From a bacterium (lineage in GTDB: Bacteria > Patescibacteriota > Saccharimonadia > Saccharimonadales > Saccharimonadaceae): a stretch of DNA of 33,905 nt. Under the pieces are notes generated by a model. It was not told where the DNA came from, made no database searches, and saw only the letters and a program-made list of their open reading frames with translations. The DNA is taken from NCBI GenBank assembly GCA_030429935.1, contig JAUIGH010000005.1, positions 1-33,905 of the forward strand, in the 5' to 3' direction. Shown here one piece after another: positions 28,529 to 30,236 of the stretch (the first letter of the stretch is position 1; each line of letters begins with the position of its first letter). The position numbers and the translations under genes were made by a program.

Positions 28529-29131
28529 TTAGAGCAAGTTTGAGCGGCGATAGGCCACGACAGCGCCAACCAGTACGACGACTGGTACGCCAGCGAGCAA
28601 GGTGTCAGCTACGCCAGTCTGCGGAAGCTCGACGCCGGTAGTTGGCATCGATTGAGTAGATTCAGCGTCAGTCGAGTCATCGGCTGAGCTATTGGCTGCG
28701 GTCTGGTCATTCGAGGCGACGGTGTCGTCAGCTGTTTCGTCGGTGGCTGGCGTTTCGGTCGTCGCAGCGTTGTCATCGCTCGAGCTATTCATCGAGTTGG
28801 TGTCGGCGACGGCTGGCTCTTCGGCTTCGTCAGACTCGTCAGCGGCAGTCTGTTCTTCATCCTGACCGGCTTCTTCGTCAGTGGCAGCTTCGTCCGAGTT
28901 GTCGGTTTCGGTTCGCTCGTCGCTGTCATCGGTCGCTTCGTCTGCGACCTCATCAGCTGCTTCTTGGGCGACTTCAGCCGCATCATCGACTGCTTCGTCA
29001 GCTGATTGACCACCCAGCTGACCATCGAGTTGCGTCGCAACCACATACAACCCGCCCAGCACCAAGGCCGCGAGTACGACTCCCACCAATACAAAACTGA
29101 TTATTGATCCCTGTCCGTATCCACGTGACAT
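28529..29131 (-). CDS. Acidic LPXTG surface protein with membrane-anchored N-terminus
   Basis: N-terminal TM (IISFVLVGVVLAALVLGGLYVV), Asp/Glu/Ala/Thr-rich stalk, SMPTTGVELPQTG + TM + RRSNLL; minus promoters TTGATA-17-CATAAT and TTGCAG-17-TATAAT. Confidence 0.8.
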   Translation of the reverse strand: MSRGYGQGSIISFVLVGVVLAALVLGGLYVVATQLDGQLGGQSADEAVDDAAEVAQEAADEVADEATDDSDERTETDNSDEAATDEEAGQDEEQTAADESDEAEEPAVADTNSMNSSSDDNAATTETPATDETADDTVASNDQTAANSSADDSTDAESTQSMPTTGVELPQTGVADTLLAGVPVVVLVGAVVAYRRSNLL

Positions 29132-29229: not shown

Positions 29230-29382
29230 GTCGGCGCGAGGTGCGCGCCGTGTGTGGGTTTGTGAAATCCGAGCCTGTACGCGAGGATTTCAGCCGAACG
29301 CTCGCATGATGCACCGGTGATGCATCATGCGAGAAGTGTACCCTCACACGATGCGCGCCTCGTGCCGACCAGCGCACCTCGC
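29230..29382. other. Long structured intergenic element (three-helix junction), possible ncRNA
   Basis: Closing helix 29230-29246/29353-29369 (17 bp, two G-U), 29250-29259/29340-29349 (10 bp, one mismatch), hairpin TGAAATCC/GGATTTCA (29263-29292), hairpin CTCGCATGATGCA/TGCATCATGCGAG (29301-29333). Confidence 0.7.
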
Positions 29383-29411
29383 CCCGCGAACATTCGTGCT
29401 ACACTACGAGC

Positions 29412-30236
29412 ATGATTATTGCGGTGGATACAGGCGGGACCAAAACGTTGATCGAGGCATTTGACAGCCAGGGCGAAAAAACCCACATCGTCAAGTTTCC
29501 AACGCCGCGCGACCCCGAGGAGTATATAGAGCAGCTTACCAGCGTGGTCAGCGATTTCGTTGGAGAACGCAAATTAGATGCAATTGCGATAGCTTTGCCT
29601 GGCACTATTCGCGGTCAACAACTCTCTCGAGCAGGTAATCTGGGTTGGGAAAATATCGACGTCATTACACACCTACAGCCGACGTTTCCGTCAACACTAA
29701 TCGTGATCGGCAATGACGCTGATATCGCCGGGCTAGCAGAGATGCGCAGCTTCGACAATGTGCCACAAACTGGGCTATATGTAACACTCAGTACTGGAGT
29801 TGGTACGGGAATCTGTTTTGCTGGCCAGCTCGATGAAGCAACCGCTATCTTTGAGGCCGGCGCGATGCACCTCGACTACGATGGCGCTGTGCAACGCTGG
29901 GAAGACTTCGCCAGCGGCAAAAATTTTTACGAACGCTATAAAAAATTCGGCGCCGACATCGACGATCCAGCTGTCTGGCGCGACTACGCCGACCGCGTCA
30001 GCCGCGGCCTGCAAGCGCTCATCCCTATCTTTGAACCGAACCGCGTGGTGATTGGTGGCAGTATGGGCACGCATTTCGCCAAGTATGACTCATTCCTACT
30101 TGACGCTCTGCGCCAGACGATTCCGACCTATCTCGAACGCACGCAGATCTCTCAAGCTAACCACCCCGAGGAGGCTGTCATTAATGGCTGCTACTACTAC
30201 GCCGTCGATCAGCTCGCTCTTGCCCCGTCTGCGTGA
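29412..30236 (+). CDS. ROK-family protein/sugar kinase-like
   Basis: MIIAVDTGGTKTLIEAFD...IVIGNDADIAGLAE...LYVTLSTGVGTGICFAG...NRVVIGGSMG. Confidence 0.85.
   Translation: MIIAVDTGGTKTLIEAFDSQGEKTHIVKFPTPRDPEEYIEQLTSVVSDFVGERKLDAIAIALPGTIRGQQLSRAGNLGWENIDVITHLQPTFPSTLIVIGNDADIAGLAEMRSFDNVPQTGLYVTLSTGVGTGICFAGQLDEATAIFEAGAMHLDYDGAVQRWEDFASGKNFYERYKKFGADIDDPAVWRDYADRVSRGLQALIPIFEPNRVVIGGSMGTHFAKYDSFLLDALRQTIPTYLERTQISQANHPEEAVINGCYYYAVDQLALAPSA

Follow-up and report, generated by a model that had tools for sequence, protein, structure and literature searches.

A dispersed palindromic element of Saccharibacteria with a conserved three-way-junction core and a copy-specific paired outer stem

What is the highly structured, GC-rich sequence that lies between two divergent genes on a contig of a Saccharibacteria genome (JAUIGH010000005.1, analysed over its 33,905 nucleotides, hereafter the window)? 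A preliminary description, made from the sequence alone, left the choice between a novel non-coding RNA or switch and a cruciform DNA element. The reading favoured here, with a probability of roughly 0.8, is that the feature is one intergenic member of a family of small palindromes, non-autonomous and about 125-150 bp long, that are dispersed in Saccharibacteria. On this reading the element would be selfish, recognised through its core, and endowed with an outer stem (P1) that is rebuilt from the flanking DNA.

Fold and setting of the window copy

Refolding of positions 29230-29370 yields a three-way junction whose helices and coordinates are essentially those proposed in the preliminary description, with a minimum free energy of -97.7 kcal/mol versus a mean of -65.8 for shuffled sequences (z = -7.28; none of 200 shuffles equalled it). 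The closing helix (29230-29246/29353-29369) and the inner part of the outer stem (29250-29259/29340-29349), formerly counted as two helices, are a single interrupted outer stem, named P1, of about 27-31 bp. The parts of the element and its neighbours are as follows:

28529-29131, minus strand: divergent neighbour coding for a 200-aa acidic protein with no Pfam family
29230-29259, plus strand: 5' arm of the outer stem P1, partner of 29340-29369; sequence copy-specific, pairing family-wide
29263-29292, plus strand: P2 hairpin, TGAAATCC/GGATTTCA (29263-29270/29285-29292); sequence conserved and covarying
29293-29300, plus strand: conserved P2-P3 joint GCCGAACG, nearly invariant in the 14-copy alignment
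29301-29333, plus strand: P3 hairpin, CTCGCATGATGCA/TGCATCATGCGAG (29301-29313/29321-29333); helix covarying, in all copies
29334-29341, plus strand: conserved junction-closing AAGTGTAC (AAAAGTGTGC across the family), from the 14-copy alignment
29340-29369, plus strand: 3' arm of the outer stem P1, from the predicted fold
29372-29382, plus strand: second complement to the 5' arm (the alternative pairing), private to the window copy
29412-30236, plus strand: divergent neighbour coding for a ROK-family protein (PF00480, E 7.6e-25)

No plausible coding sequence lies inside the element, and the flanking genes are indeed divergent (28529-29131 on the minus strand, 29412-30236 on the plus strand), separated by an intergenic region of 280 bp. 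The acidic protein has a hydrophobic segment near each end, as read from its sequence. Ahead of the ROK gene, the motif TGCTACACT (29397-29412), 6 nt from the ATG, is largely kept in relatives, and its position and conservation suggest that the ROK-gene transcript may be nearly leaderless.

The window has no Rfam match at gathering score, in agreement with the earlier remark that the element resembles no recognised RNA; gathering and relaxed thresholds together returned nothing beyond low-scoring hairpin (microRNA-type) matches, well short of the gathering scores. Moreover, such an element is not described for Saccharibacteria in the open literature searched, and the palindrome family was, by Rfam and this literature, previously uncatalogued there. 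In that sense, the novelty suggested beforehand stands. The alternative pairing that might have made the element a switch also exists, as an 11-nt complement between 29236-29246 and 29372-29382, but it is present in one of 70 copies and is therefore not a conserved switch.

A dispersed family with copy-specific, paired outer stems

Both covariation and further copies, which the preliminary description had proposed to look for, are present, the latter in relatives. BLAST against 100 relatives gave several short matches per genome to the P2-joint segment, and most of the matched places fold into the same three-way junction. When 150 relatives were searched with a covariance model built on 14 copies, 14 of them proved to be carriers, with 49 copies in all; G043, G056, and G115 have nine each, the highest count per genome. 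Of 392 genomes of the order, 23 are positive. An exact-pattern scan of 84,980 species returned 28 stretches, all from Saccharibacteria or unclassified bins, while the viral contigs (IMG/VR), phages, and plasmids searched gave no match. The incomplete assembly of the window genome contains no further full copies, and this single copy counts against the favoured reading.

The element is typically 125-150 bp long and consists of a conserved core (the P2 hairpin, the GCCGAAC joint, the P3 hairpin, and AAAGTGTGC) closed by P1. The lower P2 helix is paired in 98% of alignment cells and the P3 helix in 95-97%; over 78 distinct sequences, the paired fraction of pair cells is 91.8%, versus 62.4% in shuffles. 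Specifically, double changes occur at all 30 modelled pairs, and the signal is lost when the partners are slid; the alignment leans towards the structure because it was fitted to it, and the contrast is still very large. Most of the genomes are metagenome assemblies, so that single cases may be assembly errors, and the conclusion rests on many independent cases. Four head-to-head pairs of elements were also met (L087, L088, L089, and L090), with a near-constant spacing of 33-42 nt between the model ends.

P1 has a median length of 29 bp across the family (interquartile range 26-32), and its sequence mostly shows no relation from copy to copy, not even among copies of a single genome, whose outer arms average 24-37% identity. 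In G115, mean identity is 88% for the cores and 33% for the outer arms; nonetheless, the arms of the same copy pair past the end of the model by a median of 21 nt, versus 0 for arms taken from different copies. Exceptions to the unshared arms are an identical pair in G040 and the inner part of P1, which is partly common to copies in some genomes. G115 also carries an inverted repeat unrelated to the element (L139:19361-19599), in which arms of 54 bp enclose 131 nt.

In at least two copies, part of P1 derives from the host gene. In tlyA, the outer half of one P1 arm is made up of the coding sequence CCGGACATCGTTCTTA, whose peptide PDIVL is conserved in relatives, and the opposite arm, which relatives lack, repeats it in inverted form (at least 16 nt); likewise, in mnmA, 12-14 nt of host coding sequence are inverted-copied in the outer part of P1. 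Conversely, both arms came with the element in G040, in the second copy in G123, and in the methyltransferase gene (see below), so flank-derived renewal of P1 does not apply to every copy.

The mispairs of the outer stem are G.U more often than A.C (89 versus 39, sign test p 0.0096), with no excess in P2 and P3 (26 versus 23); the tRNA control for this comparison carries little weight, since the tRNA finder prefers G.U pairs and discards A.C ones. The excess in the outer stem suggests that one strand folds, as single-stranded DNA or RNA, and counts against a purely strand-symmetric process, which would give none.

Presence/absence, flips, and in-frame insertion

Four relatives (G001, G002, G018, and G010) have the same two divergent genes as the window, separated by a short intergenic region without such a structure, although the intergenic DNA of this locus is too diverged in relatives to place the exact insertion point. 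Elsewhere, the element is present in a methyltransferase gene of G043 and absent from that gene in the sister G123 (85% identical), and at another locus one copy is common to both genomes, with a second copy beside it in G123 only. In G040, one 144-bp unit (P1-core-P1') occurs as two identical copies in unrelated surroundings. Moreover, two sister species have the element in opposite orientations at two orthologous sites, and the P1 arms have both changed yet are paired. The element sites of G115 are syntenic with its congener G028 on one side only, which makes that comparison uninformative, and inspection by eye revealed no clear target-site duplication at L051, L061, or L088.

The window copy is itself intergenic, while in relatives the element lies in frame in eight gene types: mnmA, tsaD, tlyA, mutM, dnaX, an ABC-F gene, a methyltransferase gene, and rnhB/yraN (named by NCBIfam; the methyltransferase scores under the cut-off of its family). 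Uninterrupted versions of mnmA, tsaD, tlyA, mutM, and the methyltransferase gene occur in relatives. At one site (L051 in G040), rnhB and yraN are fused through the element into one reading frame. At the corresponding point of mnmA, different long palindromes occur in several further genera, indicating that this loop is a general landing place. Such different palindromic inserts (L121-L125, in mnmA of G018, G022, G023, G005, and G008) measure about 140-190 nt and occupy the same loop; that of L122 contains the motif CATTCCGGACTTGATCCGGAAT.

Origin of the element and closest known systems

A functional structured RNA (regulatory, ribozyme-like, or antisense), in which selection on the fold of the transcript makes the helices covary, would account for the strong conservation of the core, the covariation, and the predominance of G.U over A.C among the outer-stem mispairs, and the lack of an Rfam match leaves room for a new RNA. 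Strong covariation alone, however, is no proof of a functional RNA, and the copies lie on both strands and mostly antisense within unrelated coding genes, orthologues are flipped, the occurrence is sporadic (14 of 150 genomes), and P2 and P3 lack the G.U excess; the explanation is improbable. For the window copy, a regulatory RNA or switch is likewise unlikely, with an alternative pairing that is private to it and a site that is empty in four relatives. The other half of the earlier proposal, a cruciform DNA element, comes closer if understood as a DNA palindrome that moves, its likeness to the AAV ITR being one of shape only.

The movement itself could be that of an ordinary MITE, i.e., a deletion derivative of a DD(E/D) insertion sequence that is moved by the transposase of that sequence and has P1 as its terminal inverted repeat. 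The size and the palindromic ends fit, and the entire P1-core-P1' unit moved in G040 and G123, but terminal repeats should be common to copies, and here they are mostly unrelated though the cores are about 88% identical; nor was a parent insertion sequence or a target-site duplication found (the transposase search concerned Y1, and duplications were sought by eye). This origin is rather doubtful, if less so than a functional RNA. Far less credible is the landing of the core in pre-existing long hairpins, such as the terminators between convergent genes, with P1 as the old hairpin: several copies do lie between convergent genes, but the coding-gene insertion sites have no hairpin in relatives, and in 400 kb of G115 coreless hairpins seldom reach such a length, so existing hairpins do not simply serve as its targets.

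The favoured reading, a palindromic element that moves as DNA, can be given a putative mechanism. The element would behave as selfish DNA whose conserved core is recognised by the mobilising machinery, probably as folded single-stranded DNA or RNA, and P1 would be rebuilt or lengthened by inverted-repeat copying of one flank. Most simply, template switching during replication at the hairpin would renew P1 and keep it paired, or a fold-back step at insertion would do so, while recombination between the P1 arms may flip the core. Stems are reported to arise and to be mended through template switching (PMC8794818). A bolder version, proposed only tentatively, is that the element carries the core alone and makes its terminal inverted repeat anew on site, copying about 15-30 nt of host flank in inverted form by fold-back priming or template switching, so that the ends would always be paired without being inherited. 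The search for a mobilising enzyme covered the Y1 transposases (PF01797) in carriers and identified no mobiliser. PF01797 occurs in two of the 14 carriers (G002 and G041) and in none of the copy-rich G043, G056, G115, and G123, and a Y1/HUH transposase was rejected as the mobiliser in that its presence does not track the element. Besides the single copy in the window genome, the points that count against the favoured reading are these negative searches for a mobiliser and for a target-site duplication, the cases in which both P1 arms came with the unit, and the G.U excess of the outer stem.

Among known systems, bacterial MITEs are similarly small and non-autonomous with inverted-repeat ends, but the ends of the Saccharibacteria element are mostly unshared between copies, with no parent insertion sequence or target-site duplication found. 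REP/RAYT systems share the dispersed palindromes, some of them in inverted pairs, but the Saccharibacteria element is longer and the Y1 transposase does not track it. Hairpins made by template switching have perfect stems formed in one step and multi-base compensated changes, but were reported for RNA genes and not for a mobile element (PMC8794818). The copy-specific paired stem offers a natural record of the growth or repair of a palindrome.

The closest system is that of the Rickettsia palindromic elements (RPE), palindromes inserted in frame into conserved genes (PMC10969869). The RPE pose the puzzle of the route by which such short palindromic DNA gets into essential genes while the reading frame is kept. 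Finding this behaviour in an unrelated lineage of ultra-small parasites, together with dozens of copies, empty sites, and a conserved core, opens the mechanism to testing. The likeness extends to the length of about 100-150 bp, the dispersal, the stable hairpin folds, and the in-frame entry into conserved genes; the typical RPE copy number, several dispersed per genome, is found in relatives (up to nine), whereas the window genome has one. Conversely, Saccharibacteria belong to another phylum, and their element has a three-way-junction core and a copy-variable outer stem. Membership among the RPE is not claimed, because the likeness drawn here is one of size, fold, and habit and the host lineage differs; the element would best be filed as a new palindromic family that appears to work like the RPE.
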